DNA of 43,088 nucleotides from Chloroflexota bacterium (GTDB lineage Bacteria > Chloroflexota > Limnocylindria > Limnocylindrales > CSP1-4): contig JACQEG010000035.1 of assembly GCA_016200665.1 (NCBI GenBank), positions 1-43,088 on the forward strand, read 5' to 3'. How positions within the stretch are numbered: position 1 is the first letter of the stretch; every line of letters starts with the position of its first letter. Positions 4,672 to 34,922 of the stretch are shown piece after piece. A program made the position numbers and the translations under genes. The notes under the pieces were generated by a model. That model made no database searches. It had not been told where the DNA came from and saw only the letters and a list, made by a program, of their open reading frames with translations.

Positions 4672-6009
4672 ATGGGCGTCGAGACCGCCGGCACGCGCAT
4701 GACGAGCGAGCAGATCGTCGCCGCCAATCGCGCCCACACGTTCTTCTCGTGGTCCGTCCAGGGCCAGCTCGACCCGGTCGCGATCGACCGGGCGGAGGGG
4801 GTCTACCTCTACACCCCCGAGGGCAAGCGGATCCTCGACTTCAACAGCCAGCTGATGTCGGTCAACATCGGCCACGGCGACATGCGGGTCGTCAACGCGA
4901 TCACCGAGCAGGCGACGAAGCTCCAGTACGTCCAGCCGGCCTTTGCGACCGAGATCCGCGGCCGGCTCGGCGCCAAGCTCGCCGAGATCCTGCCCGGCGA
5001 CATGGACAAGGTGTTCTTCACTCTCGGCGGCGCCGAGGCGGTCGAGAACGCCATCAAGTTCGCCCGCCACCTGACCGGGCGCCACAAGATCCTGAGCCGC
5101 TACCGGGCCTACCACGGCGCGACCTTCGGGGCGATGACCCTGACCGGCGACCCACGCCGCTGGGCCAACGAGCCCGGCCTGGTCGGCGTCGTCCGCTACC
5201 CCGACACCCACCGCTGGGGCGAGGCCGAACCGCGGCCTGTCGCCGAGAGCCTCCAGGGCCTCGAGGACGTCATCCGCTACGAGGGCGCGCACACGATCGC
5301 GGCGATCTTCCTCGAGACGATCGTCGGGACGAACGGCATCCTCATCCCACCGGACGGGTACATCAAGGGCGTCCGCGAGATCTGCGACCGGAACGGCATC
5401 CTCATGGTCTGCGACGAGGTCATGGCCGGCTTCGGCCGGACCGGCCGCTGGTTCGCGGTCGACCACTGGGACGTCGTGCCGGACCTCATGACGATGGCCA
5501 AGGGCCTCACGAGCTCGTACCTGCCGCTCGGCGCGGTGGCCATGCGCCACCACATTGCCGAGGCGTTCGAGACGCGGATGTTCTACGGCGGGCTGACGTA
5601 CAGCAGCCACCCGGTGAGCCTCGCCGCCGCCCTCGCGACGATCAGCGTCTACGAGGAGGACGACCTCATCGGCAACGCCGCCCGGCTCGGGCCGGTCATG
5701 ACCGCGCACCACGAGCGGCTGGCGGCCAGGCACCCGTCCGTCGGGGCGCATCGGAACCTCGGGCTGTTCGGCATCCTGGACCTCGTCCGGAGCCGCGACC
5801 CGTGGACGCCGATGACGTCGTTCAACGCGACCAGCGACGAGATGAAGGCGATCGGCAAGTTCTTCCGCGAGAACGGGCTGTACGCGTTCACGCCGAACAA
5901 CTCGATCCACACCAACCCGCCGCTGTGCATCACCGAGGCGCAGCTCGCGGACGGCTTCGAGATCATCGATCGGGCGCTCGACATCGCCGACCAGGCGGTG
6001 CTCGGGTAG
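4672..6009 (+). CDS. Class III PLP-dependent aminotransferase
   Basis: TLGGAEAVENAIKFAR, AYHGATFGAMTLTGD, LMVCDEVMAGFGRTGRWFAVDHW, MTMAKGLTSSYLPLGAV (PLP lysine). Confidence 0.9.
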   Translation: MGVETAGTRMTSEQIVAANRAHTFFSWSVQGQLDPVAIDRAEGVYLYTPEGKRILDFNSQLMSVNIGHGDMRVVNAITEQATKLQYVQPAFATEIRGRLGAKLAEILPGDMDKVFFTLGGAEAVENAIKFARHLTGRHKILSRYRAYHGATFGAMTLTGDPRRWANEPGLVGVVRYPDTHRWGEAEPRPVAESLQGLEDVIRYEGAHTIAAIFLETIVGTNGILIPPDGYIKGVREICDRNGILMVCDEVMAGFGRTGRWFAVDHWDVVPDLMTMAKGLTSSYLPLGAVAMRHHIAEAFETRMFYGGLTYSSHPVSLAAALATISVYEEDDLIGNAARLGPVMTAHHERLAARHPSVGAHRNLGLFGILDLVRSRDPWTPMTSFNATSDEMKAIGKFFRENGLYAFTPNNSIHTNPPLCITEAQLADGFEIIDRALDIADQAVLG

Positions 6010-29861: not shown

Positions 29862-30359
29862 TCAGCTCTCGTCCGCGAGCGCGGCGAGGTCGTCCGCACC
29901 GAGCTCGGTCCCGTCGAGCGTCGTGATCGTCTCGGCTGCGCGGGCAGCCACCGGGGCCGGGACGGCGGCGACGTGATCCGCCGGGTCGTCGGCTGCATCG
30001 TCCAGCCGGCCGATCGAGAACGTGATGCTCGGCGGGATGGCGGCACCGATGGCGATCTCGCTGATCCGGTAGGGCGAGCCCTTGGCCCGCAGGGCGGCGT
30101 TGGCTCGTTCCTGGAGGGAGGTGGCCTTGATGATCACGTCGGCGAGCACGGCCGGGTCGATCCGCTCGACCGCGGTGGCGATGCCCTTCCTGGCGAGCCG
30201 GATCGACTCCCTGGCCTTCGCCTGCGTCGCCGGGTCGCGGATCGTCGCCTGCGCCCGCCCGCTCGTCTCGATCGCCACGTGCTTCGCCGACCCGGCCGCG
30301 TCCGCCGCCGCCTGGCGGGCCTGCTCGGCCGCCTGCTTCGCCCGTTCCAGGAAGCTCAT
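29862..30359 (-). CDS. Hypothetical protein (165 aa), Ala-rich helical N-terminus
   Basis: MSFLERAKQAAEQARQAAADAAGSAKHVAIETSGRAQATIRDPATQAKARESIRLARKG...; immediately upstream of the methyltransferase. Confidence 0.6.
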   Translation of the reverse strand: MSFLERAKQAAEQARQAAADAAGSAKHVAIETSGRAQATIRDPATQAKARESIRLARKGIATAVERIDPAVLADVIIKATSLQERANAALRAKGSPYRISEIAIGAAIPPSITFSIGRLDDAADDPADHVAAVPAPVAARAAETITTLDGTELGADDLAALADES

Positions 30360-30415
30360 CTCGCCCCTCCCGTCGACGCGCCTCGCCCGCCAGGCGCCGA
30401 TGGGTCGCCACGCGG

Positions 30416-30461
30416 TCAGGCGTGCTTGATGGTGATCCGCTTGGTGATGGTAGCGACGACC
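30416..30461 (-). repeat. Copy A of the DUF47 gene 3' end (remnant or att-like site)
   Basis: Minus-strand reading ...VATITKRITIKHA*; 30420-30441 is identical to 32979-33000 and the next 20 bp match at 15 positions. Confidence 0.7.
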
Positions 30462-31030
30462 GTATCCCCGGAAGGACCGCCGCGACCTGGGCCGGTATCC
30501 CTCGCCTTTGCGGTCAAGTGCGAACGGGGTAGTAGATAGGTCGGGCTGAAGTTGCCGCCGCGACCTCGGTCCCAGCCACCTCGACTCGTATGAGGGCCTG
30601 GACGGGCGCATGGAGGCGCTGCGGCGAGGGTGAGCGTCTGCGACATCGACCACATGTCGTCGGGTGGGCATGCGCGTGGTGCGGCGGGGCCCACCGAGGG
30701 CGGCAGGGGAGCGACAGCGCCAGGAGTACGAGTGGGCAACTCACAAACGTCAGCGGGCTCGCTGCAGTGCCTGGCCAGGTCGTGCCGGATGGGTCCCAGG
30801 ATCGCCGAGCCCGCTCGGAGCCATCCTGCGAGGCAGGACCTGGTGCAGGATGCCGAGGCGACGGCCATCGGGAGGGTCGATGCGTTCTGATTGACTCGCG
30901 CATCGAGAAGGTTTACTTCTTGCTTTCGCGGTTGGCCGCGCGCATGATGCCCCGGCCGAGCCACGCGAACTGACCCAATCATCGGCGGGAAGGTTCAGGG
31001 AGGCGACGAGCGGCAGGGGAGCTTGATGGG

Positions 31031-32356
31031 ATGGATACCCCGCGCCGCGGTCGAGTTGTTCTCGCGATTGTCGTGGCTGCGGCTCTCATGGTCCCCCTCG
31101 GGTCGGTGTCAGCCGCTCGCTCGTCATTCGCGACTGTTGCCACCTCGTCTCTCGCGGCGAGTTTCGACTCAGCGGGTATACCGCTTGTTACGAACATCAT
31201 GCAGCCGCGCCCGAAGTCCGAGTCGCAGGCGCAGGCGGTAAGTGACGCGCAAGTCTTTGCGGAAGAGCACCCAGACTCAGTCGGCTATCCATGGCTCGAC
31301 CGGGAAACGGGAACCGTAGAGCTTTCAGCGACGAATGAACAGGCGCGCGCTCTTCTCGACGGGGAAGCGGTCGCCCTGAAGGCCGCCGGCGGGGCTGGTG
31401 TCAACTTTACCGTTCGTAACGCGGAGTCCTCCGTCGCGCAGTTGATGGCTATCTCTGACGACATCACCGCGCTCCAACAGCAGGGCGTACCAGACGCCGA
31501 CTTCATCTACCTCACAGCCCCGGACTTCCAGACCAATCGCATCGTGATTCGGGTCAGCGCCGCGAGCACGGAGTTGTTCGCCACGCTGGCGCGACGATAC
31601 GGCACTGCAGCCATCGCCGTCTGGATCGATCCCAGCCCGCATGATGCCTCGACGCTCAGTCGGGACAACGACGTGCCCGATTTCTATGGTGGCGCCAAGA
31701 TCGGGACTCCAGGCAATTCCTGTTCAGACGCGTTTTCATGGACAACCGCCTCTACCAAAGGGAATGCGCTGTTAACCGCCGCTCACTGCATACCCTCGGG
31801 GGGCAACGTAACGATTGGAACCAGCAGTACCGTGAGAGGCACCGTGACTGCCAGCTCGGAGGAGAACTGGGACGCGACCTACGGGACGCGGTACTACAGC
31901 GGACAAGCGACGTACCGCGGCGACGTAGCGCTGATCCGGCTGAGCAGCGCATACAGGTCCGTCTCGGAGATCTACCGTGGCGGACCAACCTCGTCAACCC
32001 ATTCAAACGTTGCCACGAGACTACTACGCTTCAGCTATCCCGACGAGAATGTCTACGTCGGAGGCGCGAGAACTGGTGAGACTGGCCCATATCACATCAA
32101 CTTCGTCAACGTAAACGTTTGGTACAATCTGGACGGACCAAACGTGATCGCGAGGAACGTTACGACCGCGTACCTTCTAAACTCAGGCACGGTCGTCGAT
32201 CACGGCGACTCGGGTGGATCGGTGTTCCGAGTTGACGGCTCCGGGGGCATCATCGCGGTTGGTGTTCATAGCGGGAAGATTGGTGACAGCACGGCGGCCT
32301 TTACAGACATCTACCACTCGTTTCTCGCGCTTCCAGGCGACGTGAATCTGAACTGA
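31031..32356 (+). CDS. Secreted trypsin-like (S1-type) serine protease
   Basis: Signal peptide VVLAIVVAAALMVPLGSVSAA; triad contexts LLTAAHC, RGDVALIRL, VDHGDSGGSVF. Confidence 0.87.
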   Translation: MDTPRRGRVVLAIVVAAALMVPLGSVSAARSSFATVATSSLAASFDSAGIPLVTNIMQPRPKSESQAQAVSDAQVFAEEHPDSVGYPWLDRETGTVELSATNEQARALLDGEAVALKAAGGAGVNFTVRNAESSVAQLMAISDDITALQQQGVPDADFIYLTAPDFQTNRIVIRVSAASTELFATLARRYGTAAIAVWIDPSPHDASTLSRDNDVPDFYGGAKIGTPGNSCSDAFSWTTASTKGNALLTAAHCIPSGGNVTIGTSSTVRGTVTASSEENWDATYGTRYYSGQATYRGDVALIRLSSAYRSVSEIYRGGPTSSTHSNVATRLLRFSYPDENVYVGGARTGETGPYHINFVNVNVWYNLDGPNVIARNVTTAYLLNSGTVVDHGDSGGSVFRVDGSGGIIAVGVHSGKIGDSTAAFTDIYHSFLALPGDVNLN

Positions 32357-32368
32357 ACGAGCAAGACA

Positions 32369-32887
32369 TTGGATGAGAACCGGTACGCCCGGATGTCATT
32401 CGTCCTCGCCAGCGGCATCCAGGTGCACGACCGCGACGGCAGCCACGGAGGAGGATGGCGGATCCTCCTTCGTGCTGTCGTACCGAGCCTGTTGGTTGCG
32501 GTTCTCCTCGTAGCCTGCCAATCGACAGGTCGAACCTTCCGGGTGACGCTACAGACGACGTTCAATGAGGCGCTGCCAGTCGCCTTGACCGACCAGACGG
32601 GGCTTGTTACCGGAGTCACGCCGGCGGCTGTCGACTCCACGATCGGCTTCGAGCCGGCCGTTCGAGGCGACCCCGAGTCCGGCGCCCTGATCCTGACGTG
32701 GACAGGCGGCGCGTGCGACTCCGAGGCCGCCGTGACCTTCCTCATGCAAGAGGGACGTTACGTGCTGACCCTGGCAACTCACGAGAAAGCCGGGGGTGGG
32801 TGCCCCTCATCAGGCGTGCCCCGCGGCATTCGGATTGCGACCTCAACGCCAGTCCCCATCGACGCTGTCATCGTCACTGGTCGCTGA
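32369..32887 (+). CDS. Putative lipoprotein of unknown function
   Basis: SLLVAVLLVACQSTGRTFRV lipobox-like sequence; GGACDSEAAVTFLMQEGRYVLTLATHEKAGGGCPSSG. Start uncertain. Confidence 0.55.
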   Translation: MDENRYARMSFVLASGIQVHDRDGSHGGGWRILLRAVVPSLLVAVLLVACQSTGRTFRVTLQTTFNEALPVALTDQTGLVTGVTPAAVDSTIGFEPAVRGDPESGALILTWTGGACDSEAAVTFLMQEGRYVLTLATHEKAGGGCPSSGVPRGIRIATSTPVPIDAVIVTGR

Positions 32888-32911
32888 CGGTCCGATCGTG
32901 AGGCCGGATGA

Positions 32912-32945
32912 CACAAGCGCGCACCCGGCGGCGGGTGCTCTTGTG
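32912..32945. terminator. Extended stem-loop between convergent genes at the islet boundary
   Basis: CACAAG-cgc-GCACCCG-gcgg-CGGGTGC-t-CTTGTG, 6+7 bp paired. Confidence 0.6.
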
Positions 32946-32974
32946 CTCGATCCCGTGCGAGCGTCCGTTGCCGA

Positions 32975-33020
32975 CTACGCGTGCTTGATGGTGATCCGCT
33001 CGATGATGTTGGCGACGTCC
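32975..33020 (-). repeat. Copy B of the 3'-end repeat (intact within the DUF47 gene)
   Basis: GCGTGCTTGATGGTGATCCGCT at 32979-33000, identical to 30420-30441. Confidence 0.7.
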
Positions 33021-33592
33021 TCGCATTTGTCGATCGTCGACTCGAGGAGCGCGTAGACGTCCTTCCACCTGATGACCTCGAGCGGATCGGCGCCACCCGA
33101 GAACAGGTCGGCGATGGCCTTTCGGGCGAGCACGTCGCCCTCGTTCTCGAGGCGGTGGACCTCGATCCAGTACTTCTCGAGGCCCTTGAACCCGCGCAGG
33201 TGGCTGAGCGCGTCGTGGAGCTGCTCGCATTGCTTGACGATGATCGATGCCTGCTGGACCGCGACGGCGGTTGGCGCCTCGATCCGGTACAGGACGAAGG
33301 TGTCGGCGCACTCCTCGATGTAGTCGAGGACGTCGTCGAGCCCGCTGATGAGCGCGTAGATCTCCTCGCGGTCGAACGGCGTCACGAACGTCGCCTCGAG
33401 CCGGTGGCCGATGTCGTGGCTGATCTCGTCGCCGCGATGCTCCGCGTCGCGGATCTCGCGGGCCCGCGCCTCCGGCGCGTCGTACGTCCGGACCATCGCC
33501 TCGAAGAGGCGGGCGGCCCCGAGGAGGTTGGCCGCATCGTCGATGAACAGGTCGAAGAAGCGCGTCTCGCGCGGGATGAGTCTGAGCTTCAC
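32975..33592 (-). CDS. DUF47 (PhoU-like, Pit accessory) protein
   Basis: VKLRLIPRETRFFDLFIDDAANLLGAARLFEAMV...REIRDAEHRGDEISHDIGHRLEATFVTPFDREEIYALISGLDDVLDYIEE...EDVANIIERITIKHA. GTG start. Confidence 0.9.
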   Translation of the reverse strand: MKLRLIPRETRFFDLFIDDAANLLGAARLFEAMVRTYDAPEARAREIRDAEHRGDEISHDIGHRLEATFVTPFDREEIYALISGLDDVLDYIEECADTFVLYRIEAPTAVAVQQASIIVKQCEQLHDALSHLRGFKGLEKYWIEVHRLENEGDVLARKAIADLFSGGADPLEVIRWKDVYALLESTIDKCEDVANIIERITIKHA

Positions 33593-33671
33593 GCCGGCAA
33601 GGGTAGCGCCTCGGCGCGCGGCGGCCGCGCCACCCGCGCCGGCGGGGCGGCGGTGTGCGATCCTCGCGCTC

Positions 33672-34922
33672 GTGGACCCGGTCGCCCTCGTCGCCCTGGC
33701 GATCATGACGGTCGCCCTCGCGATCGCGGTCGGCGTCGCGATCTCGCGGGGGCGGACCCTGGACGGGGCTCGCGATGTGGTGGCAGCCGCCCTGCCGGCG
33801 GACGCCTCGCGCCCGGCCGGCGACGACCTCTCGGACGACATCGGTCGACTGCGACGGCGAGCGGACACGGCCGAGTTCGCCCTGGCGCAGCGCCTCCGGG
33901 ACCTGGCCTACCTTGCGGACCTCGTCGGCGTCGGCATCGTCCGCCTGACCGATGACCTGCGGGTTGAGGTCGCGAACACCGCGGCCCACGTCTTCCTCGG
34001 CCGGGCGCCCGGCTCGATGGTCGGTCGGACCGCCATCGAGGCGCTCGGTGACCATCGGATCGAGGCGGTCGCGATCGCGGCCCGCGAGGCGGGCTCGGCC
34101 ACCGACGAGGTCGCGCCGCAGGGCCCTGACGGTCCCACGCTCGTCGTTCGCGCCCGGCGCTCGCCGATCCTCGGCATCTGGCTGGTCCTCCAGGACGTCG
34201 CCGAGCTGCGCCGCCTCCAGCGGATCCGGGCCGAGTTCGTCGACAACCTGAGCCACGAGCTGCGAACGCCGATCACGACGATCGGCCTGCTCACCGAGAC
34301 GCTGGCCCGCGACGCCGAGCAGGCCGGCGAGGCCGTCCCGGCCCGGATGCGCGACCGGATCGGCAAGCTCGAGGTCGAGACCGGCAACATCGCCCAGATG
34401 GTCAGCGAGCTCCTGGACCTGGCGCGGATCGAGTCCGGCGGGCCGCAGCTGCTGCTCGACGACGTCGATCTCGGGCGGGTGGTGGCCGAGTCGGTGGAGC
34501 GGCTCCGGCCGTTTGCCGAGCGGCAGGGGATCGAGCTGCGGACGACGATCGAGCCTGGCCTGCCGCGGGTTCGTGGCGAGGCCGGCCGTCTCGGCCAGGT
34601 CATCACGAACCTCGTCCACAACGCCGTGAAGTTCAGCCAGTCCGGCGGCGAGGTCGAGGCCGGCGTTCGAGCCGACGGCGGGAGCGTCGTGGCGTGGGTC
34701 ACCGACCATGGCATCGGCATCGAGCCGGCCGATCAGCCCCGGATCTTCGAGCGCTTCTACAAGGCGGACCGGACTCGCACCGGTGGTGGCGGGACCGGCC
34801 TCGGGCTGGCGATCGTCCGGCATATCGTCGAGTGCCACGGCGGCGCGATCGGCGTCGCCTCGGAGCCGGGTGCCGGCTCCACGTTCACGGTCACGCTCCT
34901 CGCGGAGGGACCCACCCCATGA
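33672..34922 (+). CDS. PhoR-like sensor histidine kinase
   Basis: N-terminal TM, PAS-like region, FVDNLSHELRTPITTIGLLTETLA (H box), NLVHNAVKFSQSGG (N box), VTDHGIGIEPADQPRIFERFYKADRTRTGGGGTGLGLAIVRHIVECHGG. GTG start. Confidence 0.92.
   Translation: MDPVALVALAIMTVALAIAVGVAISRGRTLDGARDVVAAALPADASRPAGDDLSDDIGRLRRRADTAEFALAQRLRDLAYLADLVGVGIVRLTDDLRVEVANTAAHVFLGRAPGSMVGRTAIEALGDHRIEAVAIAAREAGSATDEVAPQGPDGPTLVVRARRSPILGIWLVLQDVAELRRLQRIRAEFVDNLSHELRTPITTIGLLTETLARDAEQAGEAVPARMRDRIGKLEVETGNIAQMVSELLDLARIESGGPQLLLDDVDLGRVVAESVERLRPFAERQGIELRTTIEPGLPRVRGEAGRLGQVITNLVHNAVKFSQSGGEVEAGVRADGGSVVAWVTDHGIGIEPADQPRIFERFYKADRTRTGGGGTGLGLAIVRHIVECHGGAIGVASEPGAGSTFTVTLLAEGPTP

Follow-up and report, generated by a model that had tools for sequence, protein, structure and literature searches.

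How did an islet of foreign-looking DNA come to lie between a DUF47 (PhoU-like) gene and its neighbour in a Chloroflexota genome, bracketed by two copies of the end of that gene? The window, which is the whole stretch analysed (43,088 nucleotides), lies on contig C71 of a draft MAG of 2.37 Mb and 82% completeness; all evidence is at assembly level. The original prediction took the islet (30416–33020; Table 1) for a small insertion, or the scar of a larger one, targeted to the 3' end of the DUF47 gene.

A duplicated gene end around foreign DNA

GCGTGCTTGATGGTGATCCGCT (22 bp) occurs exactly at 30420–30441 and 32979–33000, and the adjoining 20 bp match at 15 of 20 positions, giving 37 of 42 in total (88%). 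On the minus strand each copy, translated in the DUF47 frame, ends in R-I-T-I-K-H-A followed by a stop, TGA (30416–30418) for copy A and TAG (32975–32977) for copy B, just as the original prediction had read them. A genome-wide scan allowing up to 3 mismatches found two GCGTGCTTGATGGTGATCCGCT sites in the 2.37-Mb assembly, both in the window, and none for the reversed-pattern control; the local alignment of the copies scored 32, whereas shuffles reached 20 at most. The unique occurrence and the score above shuffles rule out a chance repeat, and the DUF47-end repeat is real with virtual certainty. All exact matches in named public genomes were in Chloroflexota MAGs. A longer DUF47 remnant beside copy A, named beforehand as the mark of plain tandem duplication, was not seen: past the 42 bp, the best alignment of copy A with DUF47 scores 13, within the shuffle range, and the remainder of the gene does not align there. 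Because similarity stops after 42 bp, a long tandem duplication of DUF47 is ruled out.

Table 1. Features in and around the islet (positions in the window).
Feature	Position	Strand	Evidence or remark
165-aa gene, native downstream neighbour of DUF47, function unassigned	29862–30359	-	Neighbour and strand kept; no Pfam match
Copy A: old DUF47 3' end, TGA 30416–30418 plus 42-bp repeat 30420–30461	30416–30461	-	Repeat scan, alignment, relatives' gene ends
51-bp spacer, copy A to casposon target-like site	30462–30512		No counterpart in relatives' DUF47 regions
GTCAAGTGCGAAC, fits GTCAA-N9 casposon target flank	30513–30525	+	No second copy at 30000–34500
Probable casposon-family terminal inverted repeat, left end, interior to right	30526–30557	+	0 mismatches to GGGGTAGTAGATN10GAAGTTGCCG
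Secreted trypsin-like serine protease, 441 aa	31031–32356	+	PF00089 E=4.2e-10; TAAHC, RGDVALI, GDSGG motifs
Putative small lipoprotein, 172 aa, start codon uncertain	32369–32887	+	LLVAVLLVAC lipobox-like stretch; relatives in G003, G072, G080
Strong hairpin between convergent lipoprotein and DUF47 genes	32910–32948		Fold -32 / -28 kcal/mol over 70 nt; core palindrome once in window
DUF47 (PhoU-like) gene, TAG 32975–32977 supplied by insert	32975–33592	-	PF01865 E=4.1e-27; relatives' usual end GCC TGA
Copy B: 42-bp repeat, present DUF47 3' end	32979–33020	-	Repeat scan, alignment

The DUF47 gene is present in 12 of 14 same-genus genomes, and the 165-aa gene keeps its position and strand in those same-genus loci that extend far enough, as well as in two sister genera. 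Five genomes of the same genus (G004, G006, G007, G008 and G010) and two of sister genera (G019 and G031) have empty sites, in which DUF47 is joined to the 165-aa gene at a distance of 40 to about 120 bp with a single repeat copy; this is the arrangement that the original prediction had expected in relatives lacking the insert. In same-genus relatives the DUF47 gene nearly always ends in GCC TGA. Copy A retains GCC TGA, adjoining the 165-aa gene's Shine-Dalgarno region, and copy B, belonging to the working DUF47 gene, ends in GCG TAG, located outside the repeat and hence supplied by the insert. These two ends indicate that the DUF47 gene was completed by incoming DNA and its old end left with the neighbour; since G003 has GCG TAG too, the variant is not exotic.

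The predicted lower GC and deviating codon use were recovered by calculation. GC is 0.57–0.66 at about 30.75–33.0 kb, compared with about 0.71 in the surroundings, and GC3 is 0.70 for the protease and 0.75 for the lipoprotein against 0.92–0.95 for DUF47 and its neighbours. The mean codon log-likelihood is -1.51 for the protease and -1.39 for the lipoprotein versus -0.56 to -0.73 for six genes of the neighbourhood, DUF47 included, although five of these six trained the codon reference, which favours their values. Given the empty sites, the gene ends of copies A and B and the foreign codon use, we are highly confident that the islet is an acquired insertion rather than the ancestral arrangement. 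Full-length relatives of the protease were found in G029 and G071 only among 177 genomes of the class, at 38–39% identity; those of the lipoprotein are few and lie within the same family. The hairpin at the right side of the islet is probably a bidirectional terminator.

Among relatives in general, the gap between DUF47 and the 165-aa gene ranges from 40 bp to 7.9 kb with differing gene content. In G012 and G014 (L045, L046) the same open frame of ~500 bp lies in this gap, which marks it as a place of gene gain. In G009 (L038, 9294; gap 7.9 kb) and G011 (L037, 2649; gap 1.05 kb) silent differences cluster in the final DUF47 codons (GCGTGTTTAATGGTTATCCGCT, GCGTGTTTTATGGTGATTCTCT), as if these gene ends had been replaced as well; a second repeat copy is absent from both loci.

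The further idea that the DUF47 3' end is an integration target in habitual use was not upheld. Not one of the 75 DUF47 loci surveyed in the class had a second copy of the gene end above control level (the best downstream matches, at most 18 of the gene's last 24 nt, were reached by the reversed control), and a tyrosine recombinase similar to the window genome's own lies within about 12 kb of DUF47 in only 2 of the 75. Two repeat copies occur in the window genome alone among the 177 class genomes, the other 176 having single copies at most, and viral contigs held no copy of the pattern, so the search for other elements with a DUF47-type end came back empty. Searches of plasmids, phages and viral contigs returned no relatives of the islet or its protease, and a phage or plasmid origin found no match there. 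As foreseen, there is no integrase among the islet's open reading frames; three tyrosine recombinases (PF00589 matches) are encoded in the window genome, all on other contigs. A recurrent DUF47-targeting element is thus not supported, given 75 loci without a second copy and an islet without an integrase; integrase-type integration at DUF47 is possible as a single case.

A casposon end inside the islet

A DNA search with the non-coding part of the islet returned short matches around 30524–30560 in several genomes, including another contig of the window genome. Combined, they yielded a 32-bp bipartite motif, GGGGTAGTAGAT-N10-GAAGTTGCCG, which has 32 copies in 15 of the 177 class genomes, whereas the reversed-pattern control has 0; it did not arise in shuffles of the window. 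We hold with good confidence that its copy at 30526–30557 is a casposon terminal repeat. The roughly 590 bp that had been described as lacking a convincing gene are therefore not empty.

No partner terminal repeat was found at up to 6 mismatches in the whole window, nor at up to 8 between 29.0 and 34.5 kb, and a candidate degenerate right terminal repeat at the right edge of the islet was rejected, its alignment being no better than the control. The islet shows no target site duplication of ~14–15 bp at both ends, GTCAAGTGCGAAC occurring once. Neither cas1 nor polB is among its genes, and a PF01867 search of the whole draft genome gave no match. Because a single end stands here without a partner or a target duplication, the islet is a degraded remnant and not an intact casposon. 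The original reading of a small insertion, or the scar of a larger one, is supported as to the insertion, but it missed the casposon end, that is, the Cas1-type mobile DNA that forms part of the islet.

A casposon family in the Chloroflexota class

Many copies of the 32-bp motif form inverted pairs 1.5–18 kb apart. Direct repeats flank each of the seven pairs tested, matching at 11–14 of 14 bp (null p <= 0.006) and in most cases fitting GTCAA-N9. Most pairs carry cargo alone, without cas1 or polB. One 3.9-kb pair lies in the window genome itself (C148); the GC3 of its cargo is 0.71–0.79, like that of the islet genes, and that of its flanks 0.86–0.97. Relatives of the islet's protease and lipoprotein do not lie between such terminal repeats in the stretches examined.

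In G015 (C43; L220/L221) lies an element of 17.9 kb with terminal inverted repeats at 5009 and 22934 and identical 14-bp flanks. It encloses a Cas1 (PF01867 E=3.7e-39) whose E, H and acidic catalytic positions align with M. mazei chain 6opm (E=4e-18), which we take to be the M. mazei casposase. Its family-B DNA polymerase has LDTET, DFTSMYP and DTDS motifs, and two small genes stand beside Cas1, with G028 homologues that look HTH-like. Further genes read as a type I restriction-modification system. No CRISPR-like array was seen at this Cas1 in the 34 kb examined. On contig C86 of G028 a homologous gene set follows a terminal repeat, its Cas1 being 55% and its polymerase 44% identical to those of G015. 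The G028 polymerase matches PF03175 at E=1.5e-5, just below the curated cut-off, and has a C-terminal HTH; a motif search returned the exonuclease motif only, and a single-sequence structure prediction had a mean pLDDT of 35. For this G028 gene set, a search over 73 kb did not reveal a right terminal repeat.

By gene set, terminal inverted repeats and duplications, the G015 and G028 elements are casposons as judged from their sequences, in keeping with how the literature defines such elements: they have a cas1-solo gene and polB between terminal inverted repeats, duplicate their target (median length 15 bp) and encode no other recombinase (PMC4046053, PMC9939771, PMC6563490). The same papers describe tandem reuse of one site in some species, and bacterial casposons constitute family 3 (Krupovic et al. 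2014, PMC4046053). Casposase biochemistry agrees with a target that has conserved first bases and a variable remainder (PMC6614799). In the literature searched, 'casposon' and 'miniature inverted-repeat' never appeared together, and casposons and Chloroflexi were never both in a title or abstract, which is a weak test of novelty; no description of cargo-only casposon copies was found in those papers.

Insertions of this family recur just upstream of the Rrf2/sufC locus (L217, which is the C148 pair of the window genome G000, L216, L220, L222 and L228) or beside suf genes (G028:C86), making this locus an integration hotspot in six genomes. On G069:C311 (L222; 3445–3522) two terminal repeats stand back to back and have one 14-bp site in common, and each adjoining cargo ends at a copy of this site with no visible second terminal repeat. 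Elsewhere in the window genome (C63, L225; 9097–9128) one terminal repeat stands alone, within the 3' end of an open frame that reads as glycine dehydrogenase (gcvP).

In G028:C86 (15000–34500; L251, L261) a type I-E CRISPR array of about 21 repeats begins 4 bp past the PolB stop. The locus contains Cas6e, Cas5e and genes reading as Cse1 and Cas3, and has no Cas1 of its own; the genome has only two PF01867 matches, both near casposon terminal repeats. A search for Cas2e (PF09707) gave no match, yet missed the E. coli control equally.

Origin of the islet and its wider meaning

On balance we favour a composite account, in which foreign DNA entered by recombination at the DUF47 3' end and is now a decayed remnant with a casposon end. 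Recombination there would have separated DUF47 from its native neighbour by the acquired DNA; copy A, with its TGA, would be the old gene end left beside the 165-aa gene, and copy B, with TAG, the DUF47 end completed by the incoming DNA. Integration would have brought in a casposon, or the insert would later have received one (co-arriving or nested, respectively). The larger element would then have been shortened until one casposon terminal repeat was left, on whose interior side the protease and lipoprotein lie. What came in at DUF47 probably exceeded the casposon part, since relatives' DUF47 regions contain nothing corresponding to the 51 bp that separate copy A from the GTCAA site. Without a second terminal repeat, a matching target duplication or a recombinase, the remnant would be incapable of moving by itself. 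Chances are even that the protease and lipoprotein are former casposon cargo. For the DUF47 duplication att-like integration is the likeliest origin, again at about even odds, the main alternative being illegitimate recombination. The C148 pair, with cargo of comparably low GC3 in the same genome, speaks for the composite account; against it, the islet has neither a second terminal repeat nor a target duplication, the draft genome yielded no Cas1, and no relative has an intermediate, be it a larger islet or an islet with an integrase.

Other readings share parts of this evidence. The islet might be the scar of a tyrosine- or serine-integrase element at DUF47 whose integrase was deleted, the casposon end being an incidental nested insertion. 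Known integrase elements leave such a mark, a direct repeat where a gene ends and a stop that comes from the insert (one archaeal element replaced TAG by TAA at a 13-bp att site; PMC6563490), the 20 bp continuing the repeat are 75% identical, which might suit an attP arm, and the genome's other contigs hold three tyrosine recombinases. The islet has no integrase, however, and neither the 75 loci, the other 176 genomes nor the viral contigs offer a second case of the duplicated end, which leaves this reading doubtful. Unlikely, too, is a reading without any dedicated recombinase, in which foreign DNA was taken up by illegitimate or homology-assisted recombination, the 42-bp end being duplicated at the junction and copy A decaying afterwards. 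The single occurrence and the missing integrase fit it, as do the non-conservative changes in copy A (VVATITK for DVANIIE), which an unselected copy should accumulate, and the pattern of 22 exact and 20 diverged bp could reflect such a small decayed duplication; on the other hand, all five mismatches of the 42 bp fall in one half (calculated probability about 0.02 if random), and a stop codon follows immediately in the insert.

That the DUF47 3' end is itself a casposon target, and the direct repeat an enlarged target duplication, is very unlikely. The gene end (ATCAAGCACGC in the window, mostly GTCAAGCACGCC within the family) does come near GTCAA-N9 targets, G018 has GTCAAGCACGAC as a target duplication, and casposons can favour gene 3' ends (PMC4046053). 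Neither copy A nor copy B is abutted by a terminal repeat, though, which rules out a casposon target duplication as the source of the 42-bp repeat: copy A ends 64 bp outside the terminal repeat, which has a GTCAA site of its own, the repeated 22–42 bp exceed the 13–14 bp usual in this casposon family, and no terminal repeat lies near DUF47 in the 75 relatives' loci. Ordinary turnover of a variable intergenic gap, with both repeats as unrelated coincidences, is less probable still; the variable length and content of the gap in relatives suit it, but it is contradicted by the statistics of the DUF47 repeat, which is not expected by chance, coincides with a gene end and brackets foreign DNA. A composite, decayed remnant is the most economical reading.

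The islet can be set beside three known kinds of element. Its terminal repeat belongs to a casposon family whose G015 and G028 members encode Cas1, HTH proteins and PolB and have terminal inverted repeats, duplications of about 14 bp and no other recognised recombinase, but it retains one end only and lacks Cas1, PolB and a target duplication; most pairs in this class likewise depart from known casposons in carrying cargo without cas1 or polB. Some integrase elements enter and restore gene 3' ends, such as phages in icd. With these, and with the archaeal NitEve-E2 (PMC6563490), the islet shares a direct repeat at a gene 3' end, an insert-supplied stop and empty sites in relatives; it differs in lacking an integrase and in a DUF47 target used in no other genome examined. 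CIME-type elements are att-flanked remnants that can be mobilised in cis. Like them, the islet has no recombinase, lies between att-like repeats and could potentially be mobilised in trans, but neither its genome nor its relatives hold a parent element with the same att.

Taken alone, the islet is a modest case: foreign DNA, now decayed, that entered at a new target, the 3' end of DUF47. By way of its non-coding stretch the analysis arrived at a Cas1 transposon family in Chloroflexota with many cargo-only copies. We suggest tentatively, and with some doubt, that casposons of the class may mobilise cargo-only cassettes of secreted proteins, transporters and restriction genes by Cas1 acting in trans, and that the DUF47 islet may be such a cassette with its right terminus lost. 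The casposon-type Cas1 and PolB beside a type I-E operon in G028 bear on the idea that CRISPR adaptation had its origin in a casposon landing beside an effector operon. If confirmed, the family would present bacterial casposons as carriers of cargo, defence genes included, and would offer natural substrates with which mobilisation in trans, and how casposases choose their targets, could be tested.
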